Below, one piece after another: positions 10,811 to 64,000 of a DNA stretch of 64,000 bases (the stretch's first letter is position 1; every line of letters begins with the position of its first letter). The stretch covers positions 1 through 64,000 of the forward strand of contig JAETXT010000014.1 of NCBI GenBank assembly GCA_019188255.1, given 5' to 3'. The DNA is from Verticillium longisporum. Taxonomy: Eukaryota > Ascomycota > Sordariomycetes > Glomerellales > Plectosphaerellaceae. A program made the translations under genes and the position numbers. A model generated the notes under the pieces. The model worked only from the letters and a program-made list of their open reading frames with translations, had not been told where the DNA came from and searched no databases.

Positions 10811-12164
10811 TTCAACGAAGATTTGAGACCACTTTGGTGGGTGATTGTGCTCTTGGTCATTCACCTAACAAGCGCCTTTCCGGAAGCTAGGCATAGCCAA
10901 GAAAGCCGTGGTCCGGGACGGTTACAGACAAGATGGGCTCCCAGGATTCTTACCCAGGTTAAAGTTTAGTGTTCTCCCGGGTACTTCTCAAGCCCCTCTC
11001 CAATCGACATCATGTTATTCCCTCACCCAGTGTTCTCAGTTCTAGTGATGTAAGCATCAGTGATATTGGCAAGATCCCGTCTAGGCGTTGAAGAGCAGCA
11101 TGGCGACCCGAGGACTTTTGCCACTGCAGGTAGCCCCATCCTTGGTTTGAGTTGACGCCAAAGAAGTTAGGCTTGTTCGCTTTGAAAATCTCCTCGTTAG
11201 TCCATTAGGTGGGAACTGAATTTGTTTGGCACCGCCAGTTCGGAGTCAGGCTGATGTCGCCGGATATAAGTCGCGCAACGACGCCAACATCCAAAGACAG
11301 TAATTTGTTACTGTCGATAAGGCACAGGACGGGATCCTTGAATTTCCAGTAGATTGATTGCCTGTAATGTGAGTGGTCGAGCGTGAGGGTCAGAGCTCTG
11401 CCGGGATTGCACGATCTAGCCAGTTCTCCCAGGCTATGACTACGTACATGGCATGGTAGTCGACGATCTGTACTAGAAATCAGTTCAAAGACCTGTGTCA
11501 TTTTTATCGTCGATGTCAATCACGATTTCCTACCCCGGCTGTCCAATTTGAATAACGGGGATTGGCTTCAATCAGCATTCGGGACCGCCAGTGCCCCGAA
11601 CATTTTGCTCCGTGACACTTAGCGCCTCGTATATCTTTGTCTGCATGTCACGCTGATCTCAGGCCAGGAGTCAGCTGCAATTGTCGGCCCTACGCCCACA
11701 GGTGATGGGCCATTATTGGAGCCACAGTCGATGTCCAGTCCATGAAATCATTCATCACAGCTTTCCAGCATTTTTAACGCGCCTACCCCATAATACCCAA
11801 GCCGCCTGACGCAGGGAAATCTGGGGCTCTAGGCCCCTGACATGACTAGTTCCTGACTGCGTGACGTAGAAGGGCAATACGAGGGACGATTCCTTCCAGA
11901 CAGGGTCCGAAGTTTCTCGTATTGTGCCTCTCGGCCCCATTAGTCTACCGTCGATCGGACTCGGCTCGCCAATGCCGGCATTACGAGAAGATCATCGTAG
12001 AGCCCACAAGACAACACATTCGGCCATTTCAGCGTGCACGTCTCTTGAGTATATAAGGAGGGAATTGCAACAAATCTATATAGCTGGCTACTCTATCTTA
12101 TACTAAATACTTTGGAATTCAATTAAATCCGGCCCAAGTTCACCAAAGATAACACCTTGCCACC
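10811..12164. other. Intergenic; outer visible limit of the inverted repeat lies here
   Basis: No gene is supported here. From 11,326 inward every base is mirrored in the right arm; base 11,326 pairs with the last base of the window, so the true outer end of the repeat cannot be seen. Confidence 0.6.
12050..12057 (+). promoter_or_regulatory. TATA box of the phiA-like gene
   Basis: TATATAAG lies 108 bases upstream of the ATG at 12165, a usual spacing for a strongly expressed fungal gene with a leader of about 80 nt. Confidence 0.55.
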
Positions 12165-12798
12165 ATGCACTTCCAAATCCTTGGTGCCGCCTCCTTCGCT
12201 GCTGCCGCCTCGGCTGCGGCACTCCCAGCTTCATCCGGGCCCCTCCTGCCGGCGCCAAGTTCAATTTGCTCGCCCTCCGGTCCGCCAGCCCCGTTCATTT
12301 CGCAGATGTCAGCGCTGCGCAGGGCAGCCTTTTCCTCAATCTTCCCAGCCAGAACGCCACTTGCGACGGCTCGTGCGGCAACAGCAGTGGCAGCGCCACA
12401 TTTTACCTGAATGATGACGGCGGTCTCTACCTCTACAGTACTTCGGCTACGCCTCAGCAGTTGTATGCCGATCGCTCAGGCATGGGTATGTGATGTTGTG
12501 CCCCTCTCCACACCGCATAGACGTACTGACCACAACACAGGTCAGGGCAACCTTGGCTACACCACGGGCGCCCAGCCTCCCCCGAAACGGCGAACGTACT
12601 GGCTGGGTTCTTGATGAGGTTGGCGACCTCACTCTCAACGGCGCTGGTTTCATCGCCTGCCCTAACAGCATCGACGGGGCATGGAGTCTCTGGGTGTCGG
12701 CTGGTGTCAATCAGCCAGGCGGTAACGAGGGTTGCCTCAGTATCTCGGCCCGTGCTACTGAGGTCAAGAACCCCGACAGCTGCGTGTACACTTCTTGA
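12165..12798 (+). CDS. phiA-like secreted cell-wall protein, left copy; two frame breaks
   Basis: The ATG at 12165 opens a clear signal peptide (MHFQILGAASFAAAASAAAL). The mature part resembles the Aspergillus PhiA/small wall protein family: LLALRSASPVHF near the start, YLNDDGGLYLY in the middle, then GAGFIACPN, WSLWVSAGV and a CLSIS motif near the C-terminus. One intron, 12487-12540, joins MG to QGNLGY. Two frame breaks occur in C-rich runs, about 12241 (one base short) and about 12578-12582 (net one base too many), so no single frame runs through. The same breaks occur in the right-arm copy. The family is tied to phialide and wall integrity; a role here is inference. Stop codons of this gene and the methyltransferase are convergent, 94 bases apart. 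Confidence 0.75.
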
Positions 12799-12892
12799 GA
12801 GTAAGGGCTGTATATAGATAAAGAGAAGAGAGTCGTAAATAGCAAAACGTAATGTAATTGTCGACAGCGCTGAATGGTCCTTTGTGTATGGA

Positions 12893-13519
12893 CTATAGAG
12901 CCTGGAGAACAAGCATACGAGCCTGCACGCCCGCGCCCCTTCGGTAGTCCTCGAGGTTGGCGCTTACAAAGGCTACCTTGCCGGCGGTGACTAGTTCCTT
13001 GACACGCTTCTCATAACCGCCGTTCTCCCAAATTGAGAAGAGAATGGTAGCAACAAGATAACCACCCTTCTTAAGTACCCTCACAAATTCAGCAATTGCA
13101 GCAGGGCCGACGTGACCCTCTGTCATTGTTCCTACGCACACAACCACGTCGTACGATGCATTGGCTCGCCCTAGAGGCTGTGACAGGTCAACTGCCTCCA
13201 GTGCACGATATACTCTGAGCTTCTGAGCTACCTTGAGCATACCGGGGCTCAGGTCGACACCATCGATGTGCTTGGCGCCCACCTTGGCAAGCTCCACGCC
13301 AACAAGACCTGTGCCGCAGCCAGCGTCAAGAATCTCAATGTGATCACCCAGTCGCTTAACATTCAAGCTCTTCAACACATGTGAGGTCGCAACGGCGGGT
13401 GCCACGTAATCCTGCTCGGCCTCGGCAAGCTCCTTATCGTATGATGTGGCCCAGTCGTCGTAGATGGCCTTCATCTCATCAACACTCGAGGCACCATAGC
13501 TGCGACCAATCTGCGACAT
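12893..13519 (-). CDS. Class I SAM-dependent methyltransferase (METTL27/Williams-Beuren-like), left copy
   Basis: A single uninterrupted exon of 208 aa starting at the ATG at 13519. The upstream in-frame stretch has only non-ATG starts. The N-terminal YDDWATSYDKEL helix precedes the Rossmann core. Motif I is ILDAGCGTGLVGVEL, motif II is DGVDLSPGML, a DVVVCVGTMTEGHV strand follows, and VLKKGGYLVATI is the post-core motif. These features match the fungal relatives of METTL27, small soluble methyltransferases with unknown substrates. There is no targeting signal. The gene is intact in both arms, one of the few duplicated genes without a break. Confidence 0.88.
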   Translation of the reverse strand: MSQIGRSYGASSVDEMKAIYDDWATSYDKELAEAEQDYVAPAVATSHVLKSLNVKRLGDHIEILDAGCGTGLVGVELAKVGAKHIDGVDLSPGMLKVAQKLRVYRALEAVDLSQPLGRANASYDVVVCVGTMTEGHVGPAAIAEFVRVLKKGGYLVATILFSIWENGGYEKRVKELVTAGKVAFVSANLEDYRRGAGVQARMLVLQAL

Positions 13520-15440
13520 GGCGGGAGAATGACTCAAATGATTTTTGACGATAGGAAATCTTCAGACGTCAGTAAAGTAGGTCCAAGATCAATCGCACAT
13601 ATCGCGTTTTTGGAGTAGGCTAACAAATTGAGACTCCTTCACAATCAAACGAGTTGAGCTCCTGTGTGCTGATGAAGGAAGCTAGACACAAACGTTTCCT
13701 AATGGTGTTGTTTGTATGAAAGGTGCTCTCGAAGCTGGTAGGAAGATCATCGGGCAGATGGGGATGCCTATTTGTACAAATTTGAGCGGACTCTTGAGCT
13801 TCAGCCTAGGTCAGGACATCACACCCTCTGTAGTGTTTCTAGGCGGATCTGAGTACGTCGGTGCCCTCTTTGATGTCACATCACACGTCATGGCGGCGCG
13901 TAGTGCAACGGTGCCAATCCTCTCATGTCGCTTTGGGAGGAAAACATCCTGCTATCCGCCTCAGTCGTGCCGCTCCTATGGCCACCCTCCGTGATGGTCG
14001 CTGAAAGCTCACGTCACTTTCTCGCTGGAGTTGAGCCCGTTGCGCGATATACCTACATCGTTGCATGAGCTACTGGCCAACTACATACGAAGTGCCTCGC
14101 CCCTCAGCAGCTGCATACGCTATGCAAAGCTAACGAGTACGATGCGGCTCAGAAGGGGGTTGATTGGCATACGAACTGGTCGAGGGTGCGGAGGTCGCTG
14201 CCTTGGGCACTCCGCGAATCTATTGCGTCTTGTGGGCCCAATCATCACCGACCGGACGCCCGCCCGCTTACCGGCCCATGGCTTGGGTGCTCCACAAAGC
14301 CGAGGCGCCGCGAGCCCAAGTTGACTGTGCATTTAAGGTATGCCGAGAACTTCATTGGTTAGAATCGTTTTTGCAACAGGGACCTGTACTTGTTTCCCTG
14401 CCACAGAATCCGGACGCGCAGGGGACCTCGCCTCCTGCTCAGCGCATCATATACGTAGTCGTCACATCTTTAGCGGGGTATGCGGCCTGACCTTGTTCAT
14501 GAGAGCGACATCCGACTAAAGTGGTTTGAGGTAACTGCGGTCCATGAGCATAAGGTGTGACGCCTTTGCTACAAGGAGCAGCTTTCCCTTCCTACGGTCT
14601 TATGATAGTCTCATCGTTTCTTGAGGCCCCAACCCCGCCAAAGGCCAAGCCATGAGCCCCGCCCCCGCCTCTGCCTAGGCAAGAAATATCCAGGGACGAA
14701 AGAGTGTGGAGGGGTAAGGCCGAAGAACTGAGGGGTTTGATTCTGTCGATCTTATCTAGTTCTAAGAGGTGCCTGCGGAAACCAAAGGCACCAACAAACC
14801 CTGCACGTCGAGGATACACCCAGTCAGCCTAACCAATGGCAATGAAAGATGGCGCAAGAAGTCGAAAGCCTGTGAAAACCCGTGCCTCGCTCTAAATCGA
14901 TCACTAGTTGAAATGTATAATATCTACCAGATGGGCGTGGGAGGCCAATCATCGACGTTGAAGCTCAACAGTGATGCTATCGAGGCCACATGCCATCTGA
15001 TGACCGACCGATGGGTATTTGCCACTTTCGCTGTTCTTTAGCAAGCTCGAGATCCTCTACGCGCAACAACTTATAAGGCATAAGATGTACAAACATGGTG
15101 GATTGCATTAACGCCTGACCTAAGATAGCTTGATGTAGAGAGTGGAAAGAAAATTCATCATTGGTTGCTCTAGCTTTGCTGAATGTCACAAAATTCATTG
15201 AAGACGATATGGTACTCAGTCTGCACTATCTAGGTACCGCATGCCGCTGGGGACTATAATGATGCTGAATACAAAATTCATGACGGATGAGTGTCGAAAC
15301 CGAAGGGTCTTGGTTTGATTCTGTTCTGTTGCTCAAGGCTTACATGTGTACATTAGGATAACGAGTGGTTGAAAATCACGAGAAAACAGACAAGCGTACA
15401 ATTGATTTGAATCTTAATTCTTGGAATAGCCAGGTTCCAC
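13520..15440. other. Intergenic, no supported gene
   Basis: Nearly 2 kb between the methyltransferase start and the GH131 stop. Short frames on both strands lack domains or splice logic. The sequence is identical in mirror image at 59886-61806. Confidence 0.5.
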
Positions 15441-16568
15441 TCAGAGACATTGAGCATACCACGGGTTAATTGTTGAGCATGTATAAGGGACAACACAAGC
15501 TGTCGGGCCGGTGTGGCCGTTTCCACCGCATTGTTGCCACTGACCTGCCCCAGCTACTGGCGGCGGAGGCGCAGCTGTCGTGACGGGTGTGGGAGCTGGT
15601 CTGGATGTTGTTGACGAAGTTCGGAGAGTAGTCGGAGCAGTTACAGGCGCTGTCGACCTTGTCGATGCAACCGAAGAGGTTGACGATCGTACCGAGCTAA
15701 CAGGGCTGACGGGGGCTCAGGGCCTTAACACCGTGTTAGGGAAGCTCGCAGACAACATCCACCCTGACTACTCACTAGAGGATCCGGGGCCAGCGACAGA
15801 TGTCGTGATTGTTCCGTCTTCGATGTAGACACCTGAAAAGTAAATATCTTCAGGCGCGTCCGGATAACCACTGCGCGGAAGCTCAAGAACACCGAGATGC
15901 CAATCGGCACCGTTGCTCGATGTTGAAGCCGCAATGGGCGCATTGACTCTGGTTAAAGGGCTGGCGCCAGTTGAGTGCCAGAAGCCGACAGTCCCAGCAC
16001 TGAAATCAATTTCATAGGCGACGTTGTGCCAAACATCGGCATCCCAGTTGACGCTCCAGTGTGTCTGTCCACCAACGCACCATCTCAAAAGCGGGTCGGA
16101 TGTTCCAGCGGCGCCGCTGAGCCAGCCTGCTTTGAGTTCGGTGAAGTGGCTTTCAAAGAAGGCTATTTGATGTTCCCGAGTCGTCGCTGGCGGATTGACG
16201 TCACTGCGTTTAATGCTGAAGTGGTAAAACACTTTTCCTTTGTTGATGGCTGCGCTCGTTTGCGGGATCAATTCGGTGCGCCGCATATTCTGGCCATTCC
16301 AGTACGCCGTGTCGGTGAGCGAGATCTTGACACCCTGTTTGGACCCAGAGTCGGCTGGGTTCTTGTAACTTGGCGACAAGTTTACATACTCAGTCACAGG
16401 CCCGCTCCCGTGAATGTAGTACTGGTAAGGGCCGACCTGCGTCGCCCAGCTCCATTTATTGAGATCGGTGGATGACGTCAGGTCATTGAAACGGCCGTCC
16501 CAAAGAATTGCAGAATAGCACTGCGAGACCAGCGAGAAAGCGGCGCTTGCGGTGGCGAGAAACTTCAT
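15441..16568 (-). CDS. Secreted GH131 beta-glucanase with C-terminal CBM1, left copy
   Basis: Exons 16568-15776 and 15715-15441 (60-nt intron) encode 355 aa in frame. The chosen ATG begins a signal peptide ([19 protein letters not shown]); the frame is open further upstream but adds only a serine/threonine stretch. The catalytic domain, residues about 20-260, carries GH131 signatures: [59 protein letters not shown] and WHLGVLELP. The region after the splice site is a Ser/Thr/Pro linker. The protein ends in a textbook CBM1 ([13 protein letters not shown], then CST and WYAQCL). GH131 enzymes act on beta-1,3/1,6- and beta-1,4-glucans, so plant or fungal wall glucan outside the cell is the target. 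No damage is visible. Confidence 0.93.
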
Positions 16569-17592
16569 TATGGAGGTAGAAGTCGTCGTGCTCATGGAAG
16601 TCATGTAATACTGGCTGTCATTGCTGCCTTTAAGAACCCGAACGCTACGGTTGATGAAACGGGCCAAGGAGCCGAAGCCTCCGTTTGCAATGTGCCCGGC
16701 AATCCGGCAATGCCGTCGATAGGGCCGGGCCGCAGCACATTCAGCCGGCAAATTGTAGGATGGCAAAGGTGCGACACTGGTGACGAGTCAGCCATCATTA
16801 TTTCACAAGCATGCCATTCTACCAGATTGCGGATCACACTATGTGGCGGGGCAACGTCGCGTATTGATTGATTAACTGCACGAGCAGACATTGTCTTACC
16901 ATTTGATACCTATCAAGTGCTGTCTTAATCCGCACACGGAGAAAATACAAGCTCTGCCTCCGTAAAGTATTCATAAGACGACCGCTTCCGTTTACTGTCC
17001 TTGGCCCGATTGTAGGGTGATCTACAATCGTACTGATCGTCCAATAATTACACACAATGAAGACTCACTTAGTCGGCGTTTGTAAGAGATGTACAACTGC
17101 ATCATTTATCATATCTTCGTTCCGCATCAAGTCATCTCCCACTGCTTCGTAGGTCATCTGGATTCAAGGTTCCAAATTATGTCCACATCGACTTACCCGC
17201 CAGCAACATTGGCCTATGAAAGAAGCCTGATTCCTTTTGAGTTAGCTTAGACGTGGACACTCGGTCAGGACCAGAAGTAGATCTCCAAAACGCCTGGGCC
17301 TAACTGGACTTCACCGATGTTGTACTAGGCAATGATGCCAGGAAAGCTCTCCCTTTCTCAAGTGCATACTTGTAGGGTGATCCTGAATGCCCTCACTGAG
17401 GAGGAAGGGAGTTGAGTTGTATATGTAGGTTATGAATGGTCCTGGGTATATGGTCAGCAGGGCGGCTACATAAAACTCTAGTAAAGGCATCCTGACAACA
17501 TTCAAATACAGACCTGCGCAGTTATGGGGCACACCCTCCAGCGCTCTTTATGCCAGCACCCCCACCTGGATGACAACTTCCATGCCTAGAAT
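16569..17592. other. Intergenic, no supported gene
   Basis: GH131 upstream region and flank of the decayed oxidoreductase. I see no gene; the stretch is mirrored in the right arm. Confidence 0.5.
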
Positions 17593-18660
17593 TCAAGTTA
17601 TGTTACCATCTAAGCAAAGGCGGTCAGGTAGAAAACTGGAGAGTATCAGATCGCTGTTATTGTGTAGTACCTGCCGCCTAAGGAACTGTCCGATAAGAGC
17701 AGTATTCTTGATACAGGAGTACATCACGGCAATAGTGACACCATCAAGATCAGTTGGACCAAGGAGATGATATCCATCCTCAGTATCAGGCCGGACGCCA
17801 AAGGTGAAGTTGCCGAAATCAATATCATTTCCATTTTTGGCTAACATTGAGCCTGGCGAACAACTCCCCTGCCGTTTTTCGAGGAGCCTCACCCACATTG
17901 CCACCTGAGAAGTAGTCCCCAGCCCGGATGCTACCATCATTCGTCTGACGCATGTGGAGCTTGTCGCCATTGCAGAGAGTTTGCAGCAACTTTCGGGTCA
18001 TGGGACGAGTGTTGATAAGTAAACCCGCTCGACCACTGAGAGGAAGCTTGCTGTTCTCTGCGGCGAGGAAGGGTACACTACCGGACCAGCGGCGAGTAAC
18101 ACGTGCTCGGCACGAATCTTTCCTCCAACCAATGACCGAAACCCAGTAACGCGACCACTCTGTTTGACGAAACCCAAGACCGTGGTCTCGAACACTTTTG
18201 CCCTCAAGGCCTTGGCCTGATCGATCAGCCGGGCGGCGGCTGCGTCAGCCTCGACTGCGCCTTCTTCCCTCGTGAGGAGACCCCATGCTGGTACAGTAGC
18301 ATCCTCGAGATTTGGTTCTATCTTGTTTATGCCACTGTAATTGACTCGGGAAATGCCATAACCCTACGCAGGCATCGCGCAAGGTCTTCGGGGCGTATAT
18401 GTCATTGGAGGGACCCGCGCCATGAGAGAGGCAGATCAGGCAGGTCTTTGCGAATCTCCTTCCATCGCTTGATAGAGCGACAGCATATATCATAGCGTAT
18501 ATCCTAACAGAATTTCGGATTCTCGAATGCAGCATTAATCCACGAAGAATGAATTGGGCGTTGCAACCCCCTTTTTGCTCTCGGCTATGATGGTGATATT
18601 GGTTCTTGGATAAGATGCCACCACCTACCACGACATCGTTGGAGCTGGAACTGTCGCCTA
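17593..18660 (-). pseudogene. Decayed FAD-dependent (D-amino-acid-oxidase-like) oxidoreductase, left copy
   Basis: Reading the minus strand across frames recovers the order of a DAO-type FAD oxidoreductase. There is a dinucleotide-fold remnant (VVVGGGI) near 18620, then RRWKEI and DLPLSWRGSLQ, a middle segment KVFETTVLGFVK-SGRVTGF near 18200, and a C-terminal block FGVRPDTEDGYHLLGPTDLDG near 17800. Continuity needs many frame changes and passes several in-frame stops. This is much heavier damage than the single homopolymer breaks elsewhere, and the start region is not recoverable. The right arm shares every lesion I compared, so decay preceded the duplication. I call it a true pseudogene. Confidence 0.75.
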
Positions 18661-19676
18661 TGGTAAAGTATAGGCGTAAACGTGTTACGAAGCTTTTGCT
18701 GTAAGCTTTGAAAGCCAGTGAAATGAGCTGCCGCAGGTTCACTGCCTCATTAAGGTTTTTAAGGATGGCCCTTCAAAACCAGGCAAATTTGTTGGGGCTG
18801 CGAAGTAAACCTTCGCCATTGAGACATGGATAATCGTGTGGATTGCGTGATGGAGGTTTCCTCACTTCTGTGAGTGAGTTAGGTAGTTCGTGATCATGGT
18901 TCCCCGTCATCGTTGATTGATCTCATTCAAACCTCGAGCGCTGTGCAGGGTCACTGCTGGGCGTTCCCCACAATAATCATTGTTGGGGGCGAGGAATTTT
19001 GCGGTGCTGAATGGCCTACAGGATTGGAAATGTGAGGCCGGCCGGTTCAAACTGCTACTTTGCAGACTGGAGTCACCAGTTGAAGTACGGGGAATTCCCC
19101 CTTGCTCCAGCACGGGCGCTGACCCCGCGTTGTTCGAGGATCTTCAATCTCCCAACCCGCGTCGTGGCGCCGACTCACCCAAGCATCTGGCAGGGGCATG
19201 TCAAGCTGCATCCTGCACTACAATCCAATGGACTCCCACCCCTGATGATCAAAGCCAGCCGGCTCGACCACATGCAAATCCTTCACCAGGCAGCATGCTC
19301 CCGATAACGCCTGTATAGACCTGGCGATATTACTTCACCCAGAGCTAGCTCTTTCTTCACGAGCCGAGACCAATCTGAGCCTGCGTCGACGCCAAGGATT
19401 ACGTTCCTTCTAAGACGCCTCGACTCCCCCGACCGCCATGCTTCAAGAACCGGCCACAGATGCCCATTTAGGACGCTGTTGTTGACCACAACCAATCTGC
19501 CGTGAAAGATTGGAGAACATTTCGTCCGAAATACTGCCCAGCCCCTCATCAAGCACCGCAGCGGGCCATGCATCGTGAGAGCTGTGTGGAAGCAAAATTA
19601 CTACATAAGATGGCGACTCGGTTCTGGTGAGGCACCAGATAATGCGCACTTCTTGTTGTGAGGTAGACATACAACC
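18661..19676. other. Intergenic, no supported gene
   Basis: Flank of the pseudogene and upstream region of the NLP-SGNH-FN3 gene. Overlapping short frames lack motifs. Confidence 0.5.
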
Positions 19677-22461
19677 ATGGCTCACGCTAGTTTCTCCCCA
19701 GGCCTTTGGCAGCCGGCTTTGCACAGGATCGTATTGCTCCTGGTCTTGTATCTCGCCCTTGTCCATCCATCGAACTGTTCTGTTATCCAGAGACGTGCTG
19801 CACCTCCACAAAAGCTGCCGAAAAGGGCCACAGAAAACGACCTACGTTACCAGCCGGCCTTAGGTAAGTACAGTTGAGATCGCTAGTTTCACAATTCTCT
19901 GACCTACTTAGATTTTGATACCGATTCCTGCTACAACGTACCCGCCATTGGCTGTGATGGAAAGATTGCAGAGGGACTTGAACCCGATGGTACTACGAAA
20001 GACTACCGTGACCTCGCCGACCTTGACAACACCAATGTCTAGTAAGCCACTCAAAGCCATGGTCATGTGCAACCACTCTAACGATTCGCTTAGTTCTCGT
20101 CAGCGATGCAACAGCGGCTTGTGTGCCTACATGTACGATTACTACTTCGAAAAGGACCACGCTGATATTGGTGCACACAAACACGACTGGGAGCACATCA
20201 TCGTATGGGTAACTGATGACCGAACGAAAAATAAAAAGTACGCGTGTGTGTCTCAGCATGGTGAATGGCTATGTCACCCAGAGGATAAGGTGCTCTGGAA
20301 AGACGAACACCCCAAGGTACCAATTATGGCCTGACAACCTAACGTATACGTTGCTTACCATCCTTGACCTAGATTGTTTACCACAAGGATTGGTTTCAAA
20401 CTCGTGCCTTTCGCTTTGCTAATGCGGAAGATGATAAATACCAGGAAAATGAGCGCCATGACTGGCAACTTGGCGATCTGGTTGGTTGGTTTGGATTTCC
20501 GACAACAGAGCTTCGGTCGGCCCTGGAAACCCATCATTTCGGCAGTGCGAGCTTTGCTCTTGGTGGCAGTTTCACGAACAATCTGAAGAACTCCCTGACT
20601 GCTTGGTGTGACGACAAATTCCCTCCTGACGGTGGAGACCTCGCAGTCTGTAAAATGCAGCATTTCCCTCATCCTTTCGATCCTGCGAGAGACGACAACG
20701 GCTCCCCGGGTCAGCCGCCAGAAGGTAACGGGTGCAACCCAACTAATCCTGGCACGCCTGGGCCTGCATTTGGCGTCATCAATGCCATGATTGTAGGAGA
20801 CTCGATTACGCAAGGGTTTGAGGGCGACTATACCTGGAGGTTCCGCCTCGCGGAGTGGTTCACGTCGGAGAGTATTACTCCGAACTTTGTTGGTCCTTGG
20901 ACCGGAACACATACCAATGCCGAGCCGAGCGACCCGAAACCTCCTCGTCTGATCGGGACTGGGGTATGTTCATCACCTTGGTATCTTGGTGGCAGTTTGC
21001 TAACGAAAGTCGCAGCCAGTACCGCCAGACGAGCGCCGAACAGGTGGAGCATACGCCAACGGTGTCTCCTTTGAAAGCAATCATTGGGCTTTGTGGGGCC
21101 GCCAAGCTGCTCAGGTTAAGAACGAGATTCGCAGTCAGGTCTCAACCCATTCGCCAGATTGGTTGCTTGTCATGCTTGGATTCAACGATCTTGGCTGGTG
21201 GGTGGGTGGGCCTGATGACACCTTGGCCAGTGTGAAGGCCATCGTTGATGAAGCGCGTGCCGCAAAGTCTAACGTCCGCATCTTGATTGCTAACGTCATC
21301 CATCGAACGTTCATCGAAGGCCGTAACGATCTTGTAACCAACACGAATATCTACAACGATAGGCAGCTGAGCAGTCGCCACGTGGGGAACAGCTATAGAC
21401 AGAGTTGACGTCAACGAGCTTGATAGGAGAGGATGATGTGCTCCAGCCCGGGATCGCATTCTTCAGCATATGATGGACTGCATCCGGGGCCAAAGGGAGA
21501 ATACCAGATCGCTCACGCCTCCAGCAAGACTCTCGTTGAGATGGGTGCGGGTAAATCAGCACTATCCGTTCCAGGCAGCTTCCCGGCATCCAAGGTCCCC
21601 ACGGTTCCTAACAATGTTCGAGTATCACAGGCTCCTTGGGGTCTAAAAATCACCTGGGACAAAGTGTGGGGTGCCAATGCATATGAGGTCCGCTCGCGTC
21701 AGAAGGGCATTAGCCAGTGGTCATACTGGCCATCCGGCATCGCCTGGCCCGTGAACCGCTGGGACAACAGCTGGGTCCTTGAAGGGCAAGAATGGGAATA
21801 CTCGGTACGGACGAATATGGGAACTGGCCGGACGTCTGAATGGTCAGGCACTGCTACTGCTGTTGCAAGGCCAACGAATCCCAAGGGACCCAACAATGTC
21901 TGGGTTGAACCTCGAGGAAACTCTATTTCTTTGCGATGGGGCGCTGTGCCTGGAGCTATCTCCTACGAGGTTATCACCTTTGATAACGATGCGACAGGGA
22001 CGACATTCCCCAACGGCCGCGGTGTCCAAGGAACCAGCGTAACCGTCAGCGATGGCTTAATAGTCGGTCACAGAAATGCCATTGCCATTGTCACATGGGC
22101 ATCCTCCGGCCCCGGATGGCCCACTATTGGCATGTCGGTGCGCGTCGGCGCAGGCCAGCCCGCGACGATTCAAGGCCTTCGCGTCAGCAACACTGACCCA
22201 ACTACGGTTCTCCTCAGCTGGCCTTACACTACAAACTTTGCCAGCTATCGTGTGTGGTTCCGTAATCACAAGACGAACGAGGCCCTCCGGACAGATGGGT
22301 ACTCCACTGCCACGGATAACTCGCATACCGTTGCCTTTTTGTTCCCTGGCACGTGGAATTATGAGTTCTATGTCGTGGCCATGAATGGAAATATTGAGGG
22401 CGGTCGTTCAAATACCGTTATACCGCCGGTATATCCGGGTTTCCAGGGGTCGGGCGGGTAA
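19677..22461 (+). CDS. NLP (necrosis-inducing) - SGNH hydrolase - FN3 fusion protein, left copy
   Basis: Five exons, 19677-19863, 19912-20041, 20094-20316, 20373-20963 and 21016-22461, with introns of 48-56 nt. A hydrophobic signal or anchor segment lies near residues 16-35. Residues about 64-265 form an NPP1/NLP domain: two Cys, a YMYDYYFEKD strand, a heptapeptide reading AHKHDWE instead of the usual GHRHDWE, and VGWFGFP. A Gly/Pro-rich linker follows. Residues about 315-535 form an SGNH/GDSL hydrolase: GDSITQG (Ser), GFNDLG (Asn) and DGLHPG (Asp-His). The C-terminal 290 residues hold fibronectin-III-like beta repeats. The splice joins keep one frame across the NLP and SGNH parts. Around 21380-21433 the frame shifts and returns (exon sum is a multiple of three), with stops in between. 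This is either paired indels or an unresolved intron, and both arms have it. Cytolysin activity is not implied by the altered heptapeptide. Confidence 0.8.
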
Positions 22462-44961: not shown

Positions 44962-44962
44962 A

Positions 44963-52864: not shown

Positions 52865-55649
52865 TTACCCGCCCGACCCCTGGAAACCCGGATATACCGG
52901 CGGTATAACGGTATTTGAACGACCGCCCTCAATATTTCCATTCATGGCCACGACATAGAACTCATAATTCCACGTGCCAGGGAACAAAAAGGCAACGGTA
53001 TGCGAGTTATCCGTGGCAGTGGAGTACCCATCTGTCCGGAGGGCCTCGTTCGTCTTGTGATTACGGAACCACACACGATAGCTGGCAAAGTTTGTAGTGT
53101 AAGGCCAGCTGAGGAGAACCGTAGTTGGGTCAGTGTTGCTGACGCGAAGGCCTTGAATCGTCGCGGGCTGGCCTGCGCCGACGCGCACCGACATGCCAAT
53201 AGTGGGCCATCCGGGGCCGGAGGATGCCCATGTGACAATGGCAATGGCATTTCTGTGACCGACTATTAAGCCATCGCTGACGGTTACGCTGGTTCCTTGG
53301 ACACCGCGGCCGTTGGGGAATGTCGTCCCTGTCGCATCGTTATCAAAGGTGATAACCTCGTAGGAGATAGCTCCAGGCACAGCGCCCCATCGCAAAGAAA
53401 TAGAGTTTCCTCGAGGTTCAACCCAGACATTGTTGGGTCCCTTGGGATTCGTTGGCCTTGCAACAGCAGTAGCAGTGCCTGACCATTCAGACGTCCGGCC
53501 AGTTCCCATATTCGTCCGTACCGAGTATTCCCATTCTTGCCCTTCAAGGACCCAGCTGTTGTCCCAGCGGTTCACGGGCCAGGCGATGCCGGATGGCCAG
53601 TATGACCACTGGCTAATGCCCTTCTGACGCGAGCGGACCTCATATGCATTGGCACCCCACACTTTGTCCCAGGTGATTTTTAGACCCCAAGGAGCCTGTG
53701 ATACTCGAACATTGTTAGGAACCGTGGGGACCTTGGATGCCGGGAAGCTGCCTGGAACGGATAGTGCTGATTTACCCGCACCCATCTCAACGAGAGTCTT
53801 GCTGGAGGCGTGAGCGATCTGGTATTCTCCCTTTGGCCCCGGATGCAGTCCATCATATGCTGAAGAATGCGATCCCGGGCTGGAGCACATCATCCTCTCC
53901 TATCAAGCTCGTTGACGTCAACTCTGTCTATAGCTGTTCCCCACGTGGCGACTGCTCAGCTGCCTATCGTTGTAGATATTCGTGTTGGTTACAAGATCGT
54001 TACGGCCTTCGATGAACGTTCGATGGATGACGTTAGCAATCAAGATGCGGACGTTAGACTTTGCGGCACGCGCTTCATCAACGATGGCCTTCACACTGGC
54101 CAAGGTGTCATCAGGCCCACCCACCCACCAGCCAAGATCGTTGAATCCAAGCATGACAAGCAACCAATCTGGCGAATGGGTTGAGACCTGACTGCGAATC
54201 TCGTTCTTAACCTGAGCAGCTTGGCGGCCCCACAAAGCCCAATGATTGCTTTCAAAGGAGACACCGTTGGCGTATGCTCCACCTGTTCGGCGCTCGTCTG
54301 GCGGTACTGGCTGCGACTTTCGTTAGCAAACTGCCACCAAGATACCAAGGTGATGAACATACCCCAGTCCCGATCAGACGAGGAGGTTTCGGGTCGCTCG
54401 GCTCGGCATTGGTATGTGTTCCGGTCCAAGGACCAACAAAGTTCGGAGTAATACTCTCCGACGTGAACCACTCCGCGAGGCGGAACCTCCAGGTATAGTC
54501 GCCCTCAAACCCTTGCGTAATCGAGTCTCCTACAATCATGGCATTGATGACGCCAAATGCAGGCCCAGGCGTGCCAGGATTAGTTGGGTTGCACCCGTTA
54601 CCTTCTGGCGGCTGACCCGGGGAGCCGTTGTCGTCTCTCGCAGGATCGAAAGGATGAGGGAAATGCTGCATTTTACAGACTGCGAGGTCTCCACCGTCAG
54701 GAGGGAATTTGTCGTCACACCAAGCAGTCAGGGAGTTCTTCAGATTGTTCGTGAAACTGCCACCAAGAGCAAAGCTCGCACTGCCGAAATGATGGGTTTC
54801 CAGGGCCGACCGAAGCTCTGTTGTCGGAAATCCAAACCAACCAACCAGATCGCCAAGTTGCCAGTCATGGCGCTCATTTTCCTGGTATTTATCATCTTCC
54901 GCATTAGCAAAGCGAAAGGCACGAGTTTGAAACCAATCCTTGTGGTAAACAATCTAGGTCAAGGATGGTAAGCAACGTATACGTTAGGTTGTCAGGCCAT
55001 AATTGGTACCTTGGGGTGTTCGTCTTTCCAGAGCACCTTATCCTCTGGGTGACATAGCCATTCACCATGCTGAGACACACACGCGTACTTTTTATTTTTC
55101 GTTCGGTCATCAGTTACCCATACGATGATGTGCTCCCAGTCGTGTTTGTGTGCACCAATATCAGCGTGGTCCTTTTCGAAGTAGTAATCGTACATGTAGG
55201 CACACAAGCCGCTGTTGCATCGCTGACGAGAACTAAGCGAATCGTTAGAGTGGTTGCACATGACCATGGCTTTGAGTGGCTTACTAGACATTGGTGTTGT
55301 CAAGGTCGGCGAGGTCACGGTAGTCTTTCGTAGTACCATCGGGTTCAAGTCCCTCTGCAATCTTTCCATCACAGCCAATGGCGGGTACGTTGTAGCAGGA
55401 ATCGGTATCAAAATCTAAGTAGGTCAGAGAATTGTGAAACTAGCGATCTCAACTGTACTTACCTAAGGCCGGCTGGTAACGTAGGTCGTTTTCTGTGGCC
55501 CTTTTCGGCAGCTTTTGTGGAGGTGCAGCACGTCTCTGGATAACAGAACAGTTCGATGGATGGACAAGGGCGAGATACAAGACCAGGAGCAATACGATCC
55601 TGTGCAAAGCCGGCTGCCAAAGGCCTGGGGAGAAACTAGCGTGAGCCAT
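52865..55649 (-). CDS. NLP - SGNH hydrolase - FN3 fusion protein, right copy
   Basis: Identical mirror copy of 19677-22461, with the start at 55649. Introns are 55462-55415, 55284-55233, 55009-54954 and 54362-54311. It has the same altered heptapeptide (AHKHDWE) and SGNH motifs and the same frame disturbance at about 53893-53946. Because it matches base for base, it gives no independent evidence on whether the disturbance is real. Confidence 0.8.
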
Positions 55650-56665
55650 GGTTGTATGTCTACCTCACAACAAGAAGTGCGCATTATCTGGTGCCTCACC
55701 AGAACCGAGTCGCCATCTTATGTAGTAATTTTGCTTCCACACAGCTCTCACGATGCATGGCCCGCTGCGGTGCTTGATGAGGGGCTGGGCAGTATTTCGG
55801 ACGAAATGTTCTCCAATCTTTCACGGCAGATTGGTTGTGGTCAACAACAGCGTCCTAAATGGGCATCTGTGGCCGGTTCTTGAAGCATGGCGGTCGGGGG
55901 AGTCGAGGCGTCTTAGAAGGAACGTAATCCTTGGCGTCGACGCAGGCTCAGATTGGTCTCGGCTCGTGAAGAAAGAGCTAGCTCTGGGTGAAGTAATATC
56001 GCCAGGTCTATACAGGCGTTATCGGGAGCATGCTGCCTGGTGAAGGATTTGCATGTGGTCGAGCCGGCTGGCTTTGATCATCAGGGGTGGGAGTCCATTG
56101 GATTGTAGTGCAGGATGCAGCTTGACATGCCCCTGCCAGATGCTTGGGTGAGTCGGCGCCACGACGCGGGTTGGGAGATTGAAGATCCTCGAACAACGCG
56201 GGGTCAGCGCCCGTGCTGGAGCAAGGGGGAATTCCCCGTACTTCAACTGGTGACTCCAGTCTGCAAAGTAGCAGTTTGAACCGGCCGGCCTCACATTTCC
56301 AATCCTGTAGGCCATTCAGCACCGCAAAATTCCTCGCCCCCAACAATGATTATTGTGGGGAACGCCCAGCAGTGACCCTGCACAGCGCTCGAGGTTTGAA
56401 TGAGATCAATCAACGATGACGGGGAACCATGATCACGAACTACCTAACTCACTCACAGAAGTGAGGAAACCTCCATCACGCAATCCACACGATTATCCAT
56501 GTCTCAATGGCGAAGGTTTACTTCGCAGCCCCAACAAATTTGCCTGGTTTTGAAGGGCCATCCTTAAAAACCTTAATGAGGCAGTGAACCTGCGGCAGCT
56601 CATTTCACTGGCTTTCAAAGCTTACAGCAAAAGCTTCGTAACACGTTTACGCCTATACTTTACCA
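55650..56665. other. Intergenic, mirror of 18661-19676
   Basis: No gene seen. Confidence 0.5.
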
Positions 56666-57733
56666 TAGGCGACAGTTCCAGCTCCAACGATGTCGTGGTA
56701 GGTGGTGGCATCTTATCCAAGAACCAATATCACCATCATAGCCGAGAGCAAAAGGGGGGTTGCAACGCCCAATTCATTCTTCGTGGATTAATGCTGCATT
56801 CGAGAATCCGAAATTCTGTTAGGATATACGCTATGATATATGCTGTCGCTCTATCAAGCGATGGAAGGAGATTCGCAAAGACCTGCCTGATCTGCCTCTC
56901 TCATGGCGCGGGTCCCTCCAATGACATATACGCCCCGAAGACCTTGCGCGATGCCTGCGTAGGGTTATGGCATTTCCCGAGTCAATTACAGTGGCATAAA
57001 CAAGATAGAACCAAATCTCGAGGATGCTACTGTACCAGCATGGGGTCTCCTCACGAGGGAAGAAGGCGCAGTCGAGGCTGACGCAGCCGCCGCCCGGCTG
57101 ATCGATCAGGCCAAGGCCTTGAGGGCAAAAGTGTTCGAGACCACGGTCTTGGGTTTCGTCAAACAGAGTGGTCGCGTTACTGGGTTTCGGTCATTGGTTG
57201 GAGGAAAGATTCGTGCCGAGCACGTGTTACTCGCCGCTGGTCCGGTAGTGTACCCTTCCTCGCCGCAGAGAACAGCAAGCTTCCTCTCAGTGGTCGAGCG
57301 GGTTTACTTATCAACACTCGTCCCATGACCCGAAAGTTGCTGCAAACTCTCTGCAATGGCGACAAGCTCCACATGCGTCAGACGAATGATGGTAGCATCC
57401 GGGCTGGGGACTACTTCTCAGGTGGCAATGTGGGTGAGGCTCCTCGAAAAACGGCAGGGGAGTTGTTCGCCAGGCTCAATGTTAGCCAAAAATGGAAATG
57501 ATATTGATTTCGGCAACTTCACCTTTGGCGTCCGGCCTGATACTGAGGATGGATATCATCTCCTTGGTCCAACTGATCTTGATGGTGTCACTATTGCCGT
57601 GATGTACTCCTGTATCAAGAATACTGCTCTTATCGGACAGTTCCTTAGGCGGCAGGTACTACACAATAACAGCGATCTGATACTCTCCAGTTTTCTACCT
57701 GACCGCCTTTGCTTAGATGGTAACATAACTTGA
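56666..57733 (+). pseudogene. Decayed FAD-dependent oxidoreductase, right copy
   Basis: Mirror of 17593-18660 with the same stops and frame changes. The best-preserved block is near 57530-57620 (FGVRPDTEDGYHLLGPTDLDG). Confidence 0.75.
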
Positions 57734-58757
57734 ATTCTAGGCATGGAAGTTGTCATCCAGGTGGGGGTGCTGGCATAAAGAGCGCTGGAGGGTGTGCCCC
57801 ATAACTGCGCAGGTCTGTATTTGAATGTTGTCAGGATGCCTTTACTAGAGTTTTATGTAGCCGCCCTGCTGACCATATACCCAGGACCATTCATAACCTA
57901 CATATACAACTCAACTCCCTTCCTCCTCAGTGAGGGCATTCAGGATCACCCTACAAGTATGCACTTGAGAAAGGGAGAGCTTTCCTGGCATCATTGCCTA
58001 GTACAACATCGGTGAAGTCCAGTTAGGCCCAGGCGTTTTGGAGATCTACTTCTGGTCCTGACCGAGTGTCCACGTCTAAGCTAACTCAAAAGGAATCAGG
58101 CTTCTTTCATAGGCCAATGTTGCTGGCGGGTAAGTCGATGTGGACATAATTTGGAACCTTGAATCCAGATGACCTACGAAGCAGTGGGAGATGACTTGAT
58201 GCGGAACGAAGATATGATAAATGATGCAGTTGTACATCTCTTACAAACGCCGACTAAGTGAGTCTTCATTGTGTGTAATTATTGGACGATCAGTACGATT
58301 GTAGATCACCCTACAATCGGGCCAAGGACAGTAAACGGAAGCGGTCGTCTTATGAATACTTTACGGAGGCAGAGCTTGTATTTTCTCCGTGTGCGGATTA
58401 AGACAGCACTTGATAGGTATCAAATGGTAAGACAATGTCTGCTCGTGCAGTTAATCAATCAATACGCGACGTTGCCCCGCCACATAGTGTGATCCGCAAT
58501 CTGGTAGAATGGCATGCTTGTGAAATAATGATGGCTGACTCGTCACCAGTGTCGCACCTTTGCCATCCTACAATTTGCCGGCTGAATGTGCTGCGGCCCG
58601 GCCCTATCGACGGCATTGCCGGATTGCCGGGCACATTGCAAACGGAGGCTTCGGCTCCTTGGCCCGTTTCATCAACCGTAGCGTTCGGGTTCTTAAAGGC
58701 AGCAATGACAGCCAGTATTACATGACTTCCATGAGCACGACGACTTCTACCTCCATA
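57734..58757. other. Intergenic, mirror of 16569-17592
   Basis: No gene seen. Confidence 0.5.
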
Positions 58758-59885
58758 ATGAAGTTTCTCGCCACCGCAAGCGCCGCTTTCTCGCTGGTCT
58801 CGCAGTGCTATTCTGCAATTCTTTGGGACGGCCGTTTCAATGACCTGACGTCATCCACCGATCTCAATAAATGGAGCTGGGCGACGCAGGTCGGCCCTTA
58901 CCAGTACTACATTCACGGGAGCGGGCCTGTGACTGAGTATGTAAACTTGTCGCCAAGTTACAAGAACCCAGCCGACTCTGGGTCCAAACAGGGTGTCAAG
59001 ATCTCGCTCACCGACACGGCGTACTGGAATGGCCAGAATATGCGGCGCACCGAATTGATCCCGCAAACGAGCGCAGCCATCAACAAAGGAAAAGTGTTTT
59101 ACCACTTCAGCATTAAACGCAGTGACGTCAATCCGCCAGCGACGACTCGGGAACATCAAATAGCCTTCTTTGAAAGCCACTTCACCGAACTCAAAGCAGG
59201 CTGGCTCAGCGGCGCCGCTGGAACATCCGACCCGCTTTTGAGATGGTGCGTTGGTGGACAGACACACTGGAGCGTCAACTGGGATGCCGATGTTTGGCAC
59301 AACGTCGCCTATGAAATTGATTTCAGTGCTGGGACTGTCGGCTTCTGGCACTCAACTGGCGCCAGCCCTTTAACCAGAGTCAATGCGCCCATTGCGGCTT
59401 CAACATCGAGCAACGGTGCCGATTGGCATCTCGGTGTTCTTGAGCTTCCGCGCAGTGGTTATCCGGACGCGCCTGAAGATATTTACTTTTCAGGTGTCTA
59501 CATCGAAGACGGAACAATCACGACATCTGTCGCTGGCCCCGGATCCTCTAGTGAGTAGTCAGGGTGGATGTTGTCTGCGAGCTTCCCTAACACGGTGTTA
59601 AGGCCCTGAGCCCCCGTCAGCCCTGTTAGCTCGGTACGATCGTCAACCTCTTCGGTTGCATCGACAAGGTCGACAGCGCCTGTAACTGCTCCGACTACTC
59701 TCCGAACTTCGTCAACAACATCCAGACCAGCTCCCACACCCGTCACGACAGCTGCGCCTCCGCCGCCAGTAGCTGGGGCAGGTCAGTGGCAACAATGCGG
59801 TGGAAACGGCCACACCGGCCCGACAGCTTGTGTTGTCCCTTATACATGCTCAACAATTAACCCGTGGTATGCTCAATGTCTCTGA
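58758..59885 (+). CDS. Secreted GH131 beta-glucanase with C-terminal CBM1, right copy
   Basis: Identical mirror copy of 15441-16568: ATG at 58758, intron 59551-59610, CBM1 at the C-terminus. Intact. If both arms are real, the genome carries two identical expressed-looking copies. Confidence 0.93.
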
Positions 59886-61806
59886 GTGGAACCTGGCTAT
59901 TCCAAGAATTAAGATTCAAATCAATTGTACGCTTGTCTGTTTTCTCGTGATTTTCAACCACTCGTTATCCTAATGTACACATGTAAGCCTTGAGCAACAG
60001 AACAGAATCAAACCAAGACCCTTCGGTTTCGACACTCATCCGTCATGAATTTTGTATTCAGCATCATTATAGTCCCCAGCGGCATGCGGTACCTAGATAG
60101 TGCAGACTGAGTACCATATCGTCTTCAATGAATTTTGTGACATTCAGCAAAGCTAGAGCAACCAATGATGAATTTTCTTTCCACTCTCTACATCAAGCTA
60201 TCTTAGGTCAGGCGTTAATGCAATCCACCATGTTTGTACATCTTATGCCTTATAAGTTGTTGCGCGTAGAGGATCTCGAGCTTGCTAAAGAACAGCGAAA
60301 GTGGCAAATACCCATCGGTCGGTCATCAGATGGCATGTGGCCTCGATAGCATCACTGTTGAGCTTCAACGTCGATGATTGGCCTCCCACGCCCATCTGGT
60401 AGATATTATACATTTCAACTAGTGATCGATTTAGAGCGAGGCACGGGTTTTCACAGGCTTTCGACTTCTTGCGCCATCTTTCATTGCCATTGGTTAGGCT
60501 GACTGGGTGTATCCTCGACGTGCAGGGTTTGTTGGTGCCTTTGGTTTCCGCAGGCACCTCTTAGAACTAGATAAGATCGACAGAATCAAACCCCTCAGTT
60601 CTTCGGCCTTACCCCTCCACACTCTTTCGTCCCTGGATATTTCTTGCCTAGGCAGAGGCGGGGGCGGGGCTCATGGCTTGGCCTTTGGCGGGGTTGGGGC
60701 CTCAAGAAACGATGAGACTATCATAAGACCGTAGGAAGGGAAAGCTGCTCCTTGTAGCAAAGGCGTCACACCTTATGCTCATGGACCGCAGTTACCTCAA
60801 ACCACTTTAGTCGGATGTCGCTCTCATGAACAAGGTCAGGCCGCATACCCCGCTAAAGATGTGACGACTACGTATATGATGCGCTGAGCAGGAGGCGAGG
60901 TCCCCTGCGCGTCCGGATTCTGTGGCAGGGAAACAAGTACAGGTCCCTGTTGCAAAAACGATTCTAACCAATGAAGTTCTCGGCATACCTTAAATGCACA
61001 GTCAACTTGGGCTCGCGGCGCCTCGGCTTTGTGGAGCACCCAAGCCATGGGCCGGTAAGCGGGCGGGCGTCCGGTCGGTGATGATTGGGCCCACAAGACG
61101 CAATAGATTCGCGGAGTGCCCAAGGCAGCGACCTCCGCACCCTCGACCAGTTCGTATGCCAATCAACCCCCTTCTGAGCCGCATCGTACTCGTTAGCTTT
61201 GCATAGCGTATGCAGCTGCTGAGGGGCGAGGCACTTCGTATGTAGTTGGCCAGTAGCTCATGCAACGATGTAGGTATATCGCGCAACGGGCTCAACTCCA
61301 GCGAGAAAGTGACGTGAGCTTTCAGCGACCATCACGGAGGGTGGCCATAGGAGCGGCACGACTGAGGCGGATAGCAGGATGTTTTCCTCCCAAAGCGACA
61401 TGAGAGGATTGGCACCGTTGCACTACGCGCCGCCATGACGTGTGATGTGACATCAAAGAGGGCACCGACGTACTCAGATCCGCCTAGAAACACTACAGAG
61501 GGTGTGATGTCCTGACCTAGGCTGAAGCTCAAGAGTCCGCTCAAATTTGTACAAATAGGCATCCCCATCTGCCCGATGATCTTCCTACCAGCTTCGAGAG
61601 CACCTTTCATACAAACAACACCATTAGGAAACGTTTGTGTCTAGCTTCCTTCATCAGCACACAGGAGCTCAACTCGTTTGATTGTGAAGGAGTCTCAATT
61701 TGTTAGCCTACTCCAAAAACGCGATATGTGCGATTGATCTTGGACCTACTTTACTGACGTCTGAAGATTTCCTATCGTCAAAAATCATTTGAGTCATTCT
61801 CCCGCC
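59886..61806. other. Intergenic, mirror of 13520-15440
   Basis: No gene seen. Confidence 0.5.
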
Positions 61807-62433
61807 ATGTCGCAGATTGGTCGCAGCTATGGTGCCTCGAGTGTTGATGAGATGAAGGCCATCTACGACGACTGGGCCACATCATACGATAAGGAGCTTG
61901 CCGAGGCCGAGCAGGATTACGTGGCACCCGCCGTTGCGACCTCACATGTGTTGAAGAGCTTGAATGTTAAGCGACTGGGTGATCACATTGAGATTCTTGA
62001 CGCTGGCTGCGGCACAGGTCTTGTTGGCGTGGAGCTTGCCAAGGTGGGCGCCAAGCACATCGATGGTGTCGACCTGAGCCCCGGTATGCTCAAGGTAGCT
62101 CAGAAGCTCAGAGTATATCGTGCACTGGAGGCAGTTGACCTGTCACAGCCTCTAGGGCGAGCCAATGCATCGTACGACGTGGTTGTGTGCGTAGGAACAA
62201 TGACAGAGGGTCACGTCGGCCCTGCTGCAATTGCTGAATTTGTGAGGGTACTTAAGAAGGGTGGTTATCTTGTTGCTACCATTCTCTTCTCAATTTGGGA
62301 GAACGGCGGTTATGAGAAGCGTGTCAAGGAACTAGTCACCGCCGGCAAGGTAGCCTTTGTAAGCGCCAACCTCGAGGACTACCGAAGGGGCGCGGGCGTG
62401 CAGGCTCGTATGCTTGTTCTCCAGGCTCTATAG
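61807..62433 (+). CDS. Class I SAM-dependent methyltransferase, right copy
   Basis: Identical mirror copy of 12893-13519; 208 aa with motif I LDAGCGTGLVG; intact. Confidence 0.88.
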   Translation: MSQIGRSYGASSVDEMKAIYDDWATSYDKELAEAEQDYVAPAVATSHVLKSLNVKRLGDHIEILDAGCGTGLVGVELAKVGAKHIDGVDLSPGMLKVAQKLRVYRALEAVDLSQPLGRANASYDVVVCVGTMTEGHVGPAAIAEFVRVLKKGGYLVATILFSIWENGGYEKRVKELVTAGKVAFVSANLEDYRRGAGVQARMLVLQAL

Positions 62434-62527
62434 TCCATACACAAAGGACCATTCAGCGCTGTCGACAATTACATTACGTTTTGCTATTTACGACTCTCTT
62501 CTCTTTATCTATATACAGCCCTTACTC

Positions 62528-63161
62528 TCAAGAAGTGTACACGCAGCTGTCGGGGTTCTTGACCTCAGTAGCACGGGCCGAGATACTGAGGCAACCCTCG
62601 TTACCGCCTGGCTGATTGACACCAGCCGACACCCAGAGACTCCATGCCCCGTCGATGCTGTTAGGGCAGGCGATGAAACCAGCGCCGTTGAGAGTGAGGT
62701 CGCCAACCTCATCAAGAACCCAGCCAGTACGTTCGCCGTTTCGGGGGAGGCTGGGCGCCCGTGGTGTAGCCAAGGTTGCCCTGACCTGTGTTGTGGTCAG
62801 TACGTCTATGCGGTGTGGAGAGGGGCACAACATCACATACCCATGCCTGAGCGATCGGCATACAACTGCTGAGGCGTAGCCGAAGTACTGTAGAGGTAGA
62901 GACCGCCGTCATCATTCAGGTAAAATGTGGCGCTGCCACTGCTGTTGCCGCACGAGCCGTCGCAAGTGGCGTTCTGGCTGGGAAGATTGAGGAAAAGGCT
63001 GCCCTGCGCAGCGCTGACATCTGCGAAATGAACGGGGCTGGCGGACCGGAGGGCGAGCAAATTGAACTTGGCGCCGGCAGGAGGGGCCCGGATGAAGCTG
63101 GGAGTGCCGCAGCCGAGGCGGCAGCAGCGAAGGAGGCGGCACCAAGGATTTGGAAGTGCAT
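62528..63161 (-). CDS. phiA-like secreted cell-wall protein, right copy; two frame breaks
   Basis: Identical mirror copy of 12165-12798, with the intron at 62839-62786 and the same two breaks in C-rich runs. Confidence 0.75.
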
Positions 63162-64000
63162 GGTGGCAAGGTGTTATCTTTGGTGAACTTGGGCCGGATT
63201 TAATTGAATTCCAAAGTATTTAGTATAAGATAGAGTAGCCAGCTATATAGATTTGTTGCAATTCCCTCCTTATATACTCAAGAGACGTGCACGCTGAAAT
63301 GGCCGAATGTGTTGTCTTGTGGGCTCTACGATGATCTTCTCGTAATGCCGGCATTGGCGAGCCGAGTCCGATCGACGGTAGACTAATGGGGCCGAGAGGC
63401 ACAATACGAGAAACTTCGGACCCTGTCTGGAAGGAATCGTCCCTCGTATTGCCCTTCTACGTCACGCAGTCAGGAACTAGTCATGTCAGGGGCCTAGAGC
63501 CCCAGATTTCCCTGCGTCAGGCGGCTTGGGTATTATGGGGTAGGCGCGTTAAAAATGCTGGAAAGCTGTGATGAATGATTTCATGGACTGGACATCGACT
63601 GTGGCTCCAATAATGGCCCATCACCTGTGGGCGTAGGGCCGACAATTGCAGCTGACTCCTGGCCTGAGATCAGCGTGACATGCAGACAAAGATATACGAG
63701 GCGCTAAGTGTCACGGAGCAAAATGTTCGGGGCACTGGCGGTCCCGAATGCTGATTGAAGCCAATCCCCGTTATTCAAATTGGACAGCCGGGGTAGGAAA
63801 TCGTGATTGACATCGACGATAAAAATGACACAGGTCTTTGAACTGATTTCTAGTACAGATCGTCGACTACCATGCCATGTACGTAGTCATAGCCTGGGAG
63901 AACTGGCTAGATCGTGCAATCCCGGCAGAGCTCTGACCCTCACGCTCGACCACTCACATTACAGGCAATCAATCTACTGGAAATTCAAGGATCCCGTCCT
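63162..64000. other. Upstream region of phiA-like gene, mirror of 11326-12164
   Basis: Holds the mirrored TATATAAG at 63269-63276. No gene. The inverted repeat still continues at the last base. Confidence 0.6.

Follow-up and report, generated by a model that had tools for sequence, protein, structure and literature searches.

The left end of a scaffold of Verticillium longisporum is organized as a giant inverted repeat, in which two near-identical arms stop exactly at inverted copies of one pogo/Fot1-like DNA transposon and enclose a spacer of 14.6 kb. The window analysed here, a stretch of 64,000 nucleotides, is C6:1-64000 of an assembly totalling 72,013,526 bases in 16 contigs, which we name C1 to C16. 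We tentatively favor the reading that the left end of C6 is a real inverted duplication, nucleated by the transposon pair through fold-back at an uncapped chromosome end with the spacer as the loop, and we rate this reading slightly below an even chance.

Mirror arms and their boundary elements

Self-BLAST of the window yields a single long inverted match, between 11326-30365 and 64000-44962 (19,041 columns, 99.979%). This match is shortened because the right arm is cut off at the window edge; after adding C6:64001-144000 it extends to 2-30365 versus 75327-44962 (30,369 columns, 99.967%). A near-identical inverted match of 30 kb is far beyond chance. The left, scaffold-terminal arm (2..28501, + strand) is the inverted copy of C6:46826-75327 and reaches base 2 of the scaffold, and the right arm (46826..64000, + strand) continues beyond the window as far as C6:75327, with the body of C6 following. 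The first-pass annotation had described more than 19 kb mirrored on each side of a unique 14.6-kb spacer; the mirror and the spacer are borne out, and the size has to be raised to arms of at least 30.36 kb once C6 beyond the window is included.

Each arm stops at an element of 1,863 bases, a length that includes the flanking TA dinucleotides. The left copy, TE-L (28502..30364, + strand; element proper 28504-30362), has terminal repeats and is flanked by TA at 28502-28503 and 30363-30364. The right copy, TE-R (44963..46825, − strand), is the same element in the opposite orientation to TE-L, likewise flanked by TA at both ends, and carries the other state at two indels. At the left inner boundary, the TA at 30363-30364 is followed by one more shared T (30365), after which the flanks diverge and are unrelated (TCGTTGCTCC at the left versus AGCTTCTTAC at the mirrored right position); a single extra shared base is at the chance level of one in four. 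The outer 60-base flanks are identical between TE-L and TE-R. Flank alignment agrees with the earlier description in placing the ends of homology at 30365 and 44962, one base past the TA of inverted pogo-like elements, with identical outer and unrelated inner flanks.

The terminal inverted repeats span 58 bases at 93% when the TA is counted, with 29 perfect bases inside the TA, and the element carries an internal 17-bp direct repeat. The transposase frame of TE-L (29116..30264, − strand; 382 amino acids) encodes DDE_1 (3e-31), HTH_Tnp_Tc5 (2.3e-06) and HTH_psq (1.5e-04) domains, and the TE-R frame (45063..46178, + strand; 371 amino acids) encodes the same three. Each frame ends at those coordinates, and an uninterrupted full-length transposase is absent from both copies. 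The TA, the terminal inverted repeats and a DDE transposase with a CENP-B/Tc5-type DNA-binding domain identify the element as pogo/Fot1-like. In its general features we take it to resemble fungal Pot2/Fot1-type DNA transposons, sharing the length of ~1.86 kb, TA target, terminal inverted repeats, internal direct repeat, and DDE_1 plus Tc5-type domains, and to differ from them in the interrupted transposase frame of TE-L and TE-R.

The spacer (30366..44961), which is the loop in a fold-back model, was searched for second copies in pieces. The pieces 32750-42099 and 42100-44961 each occur once in the assembly, with no second copy of 32750-44961 found elsewhere in it. The first 2.4 kb (30366-32749) contains dispersed repeats. 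A query with the whole spacer returned dispersed repeats only and failed to return the window itself, and is hence unreliable; single-copy status is established for 32750-44961. A protein search with one spacer open reading frame (ORF) gave a single match, the window's own protein.

The assembly size and contig number match those of the V. longisporum PD589 assembly (72.0 Mb, 16 pseudochromosomes; PMC8406199), and we infer from these matching numbers, rather than from sequence, that PD589 is its source. The PD589 assembly, filed under BioProject PRJNA473305, was produced from Oxford Nanopore Technologies (ONT) R9.4.1 reads (about 7 Gb in 924,740 reads) with Canu 1.8, short-read polishing and Hi-C scaffolding, and contigs of 100 kb or less were discarded (PMC8406199). 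Over 30.4 kb the arms differ at 8 sites, 2 within the element and 6 outside it, and inspection of all 8 found no clear base substitution. They comprise altered homopolymer lengths, 2 sites at the edge of a homopolymer, and a 2-base alteration within a short repeat. Given that the matching PD589 assembly was built from ONT R9.4.1 reads with Canu 1.8, such differences are best read as consensus errors. We judged the sites against the relative on C15 and the GH92 domain, leaving out 8000 and 18572. The right arm is deviant at 2 judged sites (the run length at 70878, and the GH92 frame, with 192.6 versus 194.9 bits) and the left arm at 1 (1846, against the C15 relative); the difference at 4930 is ambiguous in these comparisons. 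The judged sites deviate in either arm, and the errors therefore lie in both arms rather than in the terminal tail alone.

The outer part of the left arm (2..6154, + strand) resembles the right subtelomere of C15 (C15:4218352-4226513) at 87.5-93.5% in three pieces, and the similarity stops at the start of the C15 telomere repeats. This subtelomere similarity places the left side of C6 near a chromosome end. Past the C15-like part, whose C15 match stops at the telomere, C6 continues for ~69 kb. The ORF nearest to the outer flank of TE-L (28012-28533) has no Pfam match. Within the spacer, a 5S ribosomal RNA gene lies at 32509..32628 (− strand; Rfam RF00001, 84.6 bits).

Element copies and other telomere-less ends

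With TE-L and TE-R as queries, searches of the genome listed 487 and 488 candidate places, and the 40 copies scored in each search all match the whole query at about 100%. TE-L and TE-R differ by two indels, both states of which recur in other copies. With TE-L as the query, 38 of the 40 scored copies lie one step under the exact match (3356 versus 3360 bits); with TE-R, 15 of the 40 lie one step under, 13 score 3351 bits, and 10 score 3348 bits and are one base shorter. Nine copies were compared letter by letter, and bit scores served to deduce the states of the remaining listed copies; the tenth copy in the alignment, C12:2396-4130, was excluded from the column comparison for its poor quality. 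Among the nine, the one-step deficit corresponds to an A instead of a G at 30001, and the G is found only in four C6 copies (28502, 44963, 479522 and 489987), which include both indel states. Judging from these aligned letters, the history of the four copies is not simple; local transposition, gene conversion and polishing noise are candidate explanations for the G. The one-base-shorter copies may represent a third state combination, and linkage between the two indels may be loose. The copies at C6:479522 and C6:489987 were excluded as the source, their flanks being unrelated to those of the window. That TE-L and TE-R are one copy read twice is disfavored by the two differing sites, each state of which recurs in other copies.

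A telomere repeat within 300 bases is lacking at 9 of the 32 scaffold ends, including the left end of C6; its right end has one. The left end of C6 represents an unassembled end rather than a demonstrated loss of the original tip. We searched 7 of the 9 telomere-less ends for second copies (C12-left and C13-right were left out) and found a near-identical one at three: C6-left, C8-left and C14-right. The first 3 kb of C8-left match C15:270538-273540 at ~100%, and probes at 9.4, 20, 30, 45, 48, 51 and 54 kb of C8 match C15 letter for letter. Sampled in this way, C8:1-57677 against C15:270538-326334 is a 55.8-kb copy at a telomere-less end. The same element as in the window starts at C8:55815, exactly where the C15 copy ends, and C15 and C8 are alike over the 77 bases up to and including the TA before the C8 element. 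The C15 donor site has no element within C15:326221-326400, and no C15 match beyond the C8 element (from C8:57678 on) was found in 73 bases or in three element-corrected probes. The copy runs toward the left end of C15. Within the 3-kb search and the sampled probes that define its identity, which cover C15 from 270538 on, the C8/C15 duplication starts exactly at the element end and runs toward the donor chromosome end. The earlier proposal that the duplication ends in or at the transposon is supported, and C8-left is a second scaffold end bounded by the same element.

C14-right repeats, nearly identically and in inverted orientation, a locus situated 0.33 Mb further inside the same scaffold (C14:5423001-5431292 versus C14:5098150-5106540); two probes show this for at least 8 kb. 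The terminal 300 bases are 99% identical to C14:5098150-5098451 and 96% identical to one place on C15; a probe 8.2 kb inside the end matches the inner locus at 50 of 50 bases, and a probe 20 kb inside has no match within the compared slice. C4-left sits in a ~10.2-kb repeat with further near-identical copies; from the matches of two end pieces, this repeat lies at C4:1-10218, 373709-383926 and 764448-774664. At C4:383927-384494, a gap of 500 N is immediately followed, inside the scaffold, by telomere repeats in left-end orientation, making this a doubtful scaffold join. C7-left yielded no more than a relative at 94%, C15-left contains a dispersed repeat of 310 bases and has a relative at 91% on C16, and C13-left matched only itself. 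Second copies at 88-94% occur for C6-left, C7-left and C15-left, which would fit a hybrid carrying two subgenomes.

In self-comparisons of 10-kb ends (15 left ends, C6-right and C15-right), which are blind to fold-backs with longer spacers, no near-identical fold-back was found besides an inverted element pair at C12-left. The inverted element copy at this AT-rich telomere-less end (C12:2396-4130) matches at 91% with 55 gap openings and is probably unpolished read sequence. Alphabetical contig order would, as a guess, make C6 chromosome 14, C8 chromosome 16, C15 chromosome 8 and C5 chromosome 13. In PD589, chromosome 13 has a median depth of 110x versus 58-70x elsewhere, and a recent partial duplication was inferred there (PMC8406199).

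Origin of the mirrored end

The hallmark of a fold-back, mirror arms that meet at an inverted repeat pair around a unique loop, is present in C6, with the loop tested over 32750-44961. In favor of fold-back, the 30.4-kb arms terminate precisely at two copies of the same element in inverted orientation, and the spacer separating these is unique. The event would have begun with two near-identical pogo/Fot1-like elements in inverted orientation, 14.6 kb apart and close to a chromosome end. Upon loss of the telomere and resection, the single strand with TE-L could anneal in cis to TE-R, the distal tail would be trimmed at the TE-L edge, and synthesis primed from TE-L would copy the arm beyond TE-R. 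The spacer would become the loop, the elements the stem and the arms the mirror image, and the distal tip would be lost. An inverted dimer, which is dicentric, would form first, and later breakage and healing would have taken place at a point at least 30.4 kb out, with the resulting molecules at normal copy number and the assembler stopping where the arms can no longer be distinguished. TE-L keeps its own state at the two indel sites despite the identical flank beyond, as trimming at its edge predicts. The first-pass annotation had proposed two inverted copies, a break at one, and repair that copied outward from the other. Of this, the boundary formed by inverted copies stands, both arms may be carried by one chromosome, and the repair step is better described as fold-back annealing without exchange inside the element, TE-L having kept its variants. 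Outward copying from TE-R leads away from the scaffold end and toward the body of C6, so that the product would become stable only after another break and the capture of a telomere, a requirement that the earlier proposal leaves aside.

Several points weigh against a real duplication of this kind. The structure is known from assembled sequence, at a scaffold end where assembly errors gather, and the mirrored arm extends to the very last base of that end. The lack of a clear substitution between the arms is as expected if one locus was assembled twice, and the errors in both arms (2 judged sites in the right, 1 in the left) could also be explained by halved depth. Neither the distal arm end nor a healing junction is part of the assembly, the primary product would be dicentric, and the scaffolding contains at least one doubtful join, that in C4. 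The G at 30001, common to four C6 copies of both states, is left unaccounted for; the two indel sites are homopolymers and may reflect polishing noise; and the 10 of 40 scored copies that are one base shorter may be a third combination of states.

Two other origins are each unlikely in our estimate and have to be weighed against fold-back. In one there is no duplication: recombination between the inverted elements turns the 14.6-kb spacer around in some of the culture, so that reads of the flipped form join the arm, the element and the left side of the spacer, and the assembler passes from the standard to the flipped form, creating a false mirror arm and losing the true tip. Such inversion isoforms would account for the identical arms, the inverted pair and the nearness of the partner no less well than fold-back does, and a short tip could be missing, since contigs of at most 100 kb were dropped (PMC8406199). 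They would require both forms to be common in the sequenced culture, the assembly contains neither a second copy of spacer 32750-44961 nor a tip contig, and C8, whose C15 partner site has no element, is left unexplained. In the other, the C6 contig end was extended through the 1.86-kb element with right-arm reads and the mirror arm does not exist. The abundance and near-identity of the element, the ONT R9.4.1 and Canu 1.8 assembly described for PD589 (PMC8406199), the telomere-less end with the arm up to its last base, the second copies into which C8-left, C14-right and C4-left (a multi-copy repeat) also run, the poor element copy at C12-left (91%, 55 gap openings) and the doubtful join in C4 all speak for an assembly join. 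However, a 1.86-kb element is easily spanned by reads from about 7 Gb in 924,740 reads (PMC8406199), and in quality the left arm equals the right (99.967% identical, errors in both), unlike an unpolished single-read tail.

The choice of partner bears on these origins differently. Out of 487-488 candidate places, the partner used lies at a distance of 14.6 kb in inverted orientation, a copy that a random join would seldom choose; this counts against a random misjoin but not against inversion isoforms. For C8, a join via a second assembled element is not available because the C15 site has none to provide the overlap, and C8-left, the second telomere-less end bounded by the same element, counts in favor of the fold-back reading. 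A telomere-less end with the arm up to the last base would be produced alike by real duplication, inversion isoforms and a misjoin, and does not discriminate among the three. Template-complement reads, which are known from the nanopore platform and yield inverted repeats, are a highly improbable source and were rejected: they mirror at a read end without a spacer, whereas here the arms stop at transposon ends around a 14.6-kb unique spacer. The earlier expectation that arm depth is twice spacer depth in a real duplication holds on a collapsed reference only; here the assembly contains both arms, so that arm depth is predicted to equal spacer depth for a real duplication and to be about half of it for an artefact.

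A broader reading, which we consider rather improbable, credits the turnover of chromosome ends in this hybrid fungus to a single, recently active pogo/Fot1-like family that works by two routes. At C6 an inverted pair would fold back, and at C8 an element end would be joined to an empty TA site on another chromosome, C15, with copying of the segment toward that chromosome's end. In the second route, end capture would be coupled to transposition, in place of recombination between two elements already resident. If this holds, some telomere-less scaffold ends would be real duplicated ends.

Known rearrangements and meaning of the mirrored end

By analogy, C6 is a plausible natural case of an already known kind of rearrangement whose mechanism is known from yeast. 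In budding yeast, inverted repeats 30 kb apart fold back in long single-stranded DNA, and inverted dimers were detected with 1.5- and 5-kb spacers (PMC10164571). In all 12 clones that were sequenced, a terminal deletion was accompanied by an inverted duplication (~24 kb long in 8 clones and ~100 kb in 4), with translocation rather than telomere addition (PMC10164571). The C6 end is like that system in its widely spaced inverted mobile-element pair, its loop, stem and mirrored arm, and, under fold-back, its terminal deletion with an inverted duplication of tens of kb. The yeast work used engineered Alu pairs in cdc13-707fs mutants and observed dimers and healed ends (PMC10164571), whereas C6 has a natural pogo/Fot1-like pair, is known from assembly alone, and has its distal end outside that assembly.

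Among Ty1 rearrangements, the commonest class is duplications bounded by the transposon and the telomere (PMC3102749). These are like C8/C15 in having a transposon on one side and running toward the telomere, and dicentrics arise if the element faces the opposite way; they differ in that Ty1 is a retrotransposon whose target normally holds an element (PMC3102749), whereas the C15 site has none. In Verticillium dahliae, two breakpoints carry an element in just one of the two strains compared (PMC4971763). The likeness is in breakpoints at near-identical elements; the V. dahliae cases are inter-strain translocations and inversions, and the available text of that paper does not use the word 'inverted' (PMC4971763). 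In the literature searched, which mostly excludes subscription journals, we found no paper on an inverted duplication in V. longisporum or on Tc1/Pot2 elements in Verticillium.

If the mirrored end is not real, false second copies at the telomere-less ends of C6, C8 and C14 would raise gene counts artificially and distort analyses of depth. If it is real, the event would be very recent: with a mutation rate of 6.03e-10 per site per division (PMC8406199), 0 clear substitutions in ~28.5 kb per arm give a 95% upper bound near 87,000 divisions, or ~16 years of continuous growth when scaled from the same paper. The left end of C6 would then show that the inverted-repeat fold-back known from engineered yeast strains also occurs naturally, in what seems to be a young hybrid plant pathogen, through a pair of DNA transposons 14.6 kb apart.

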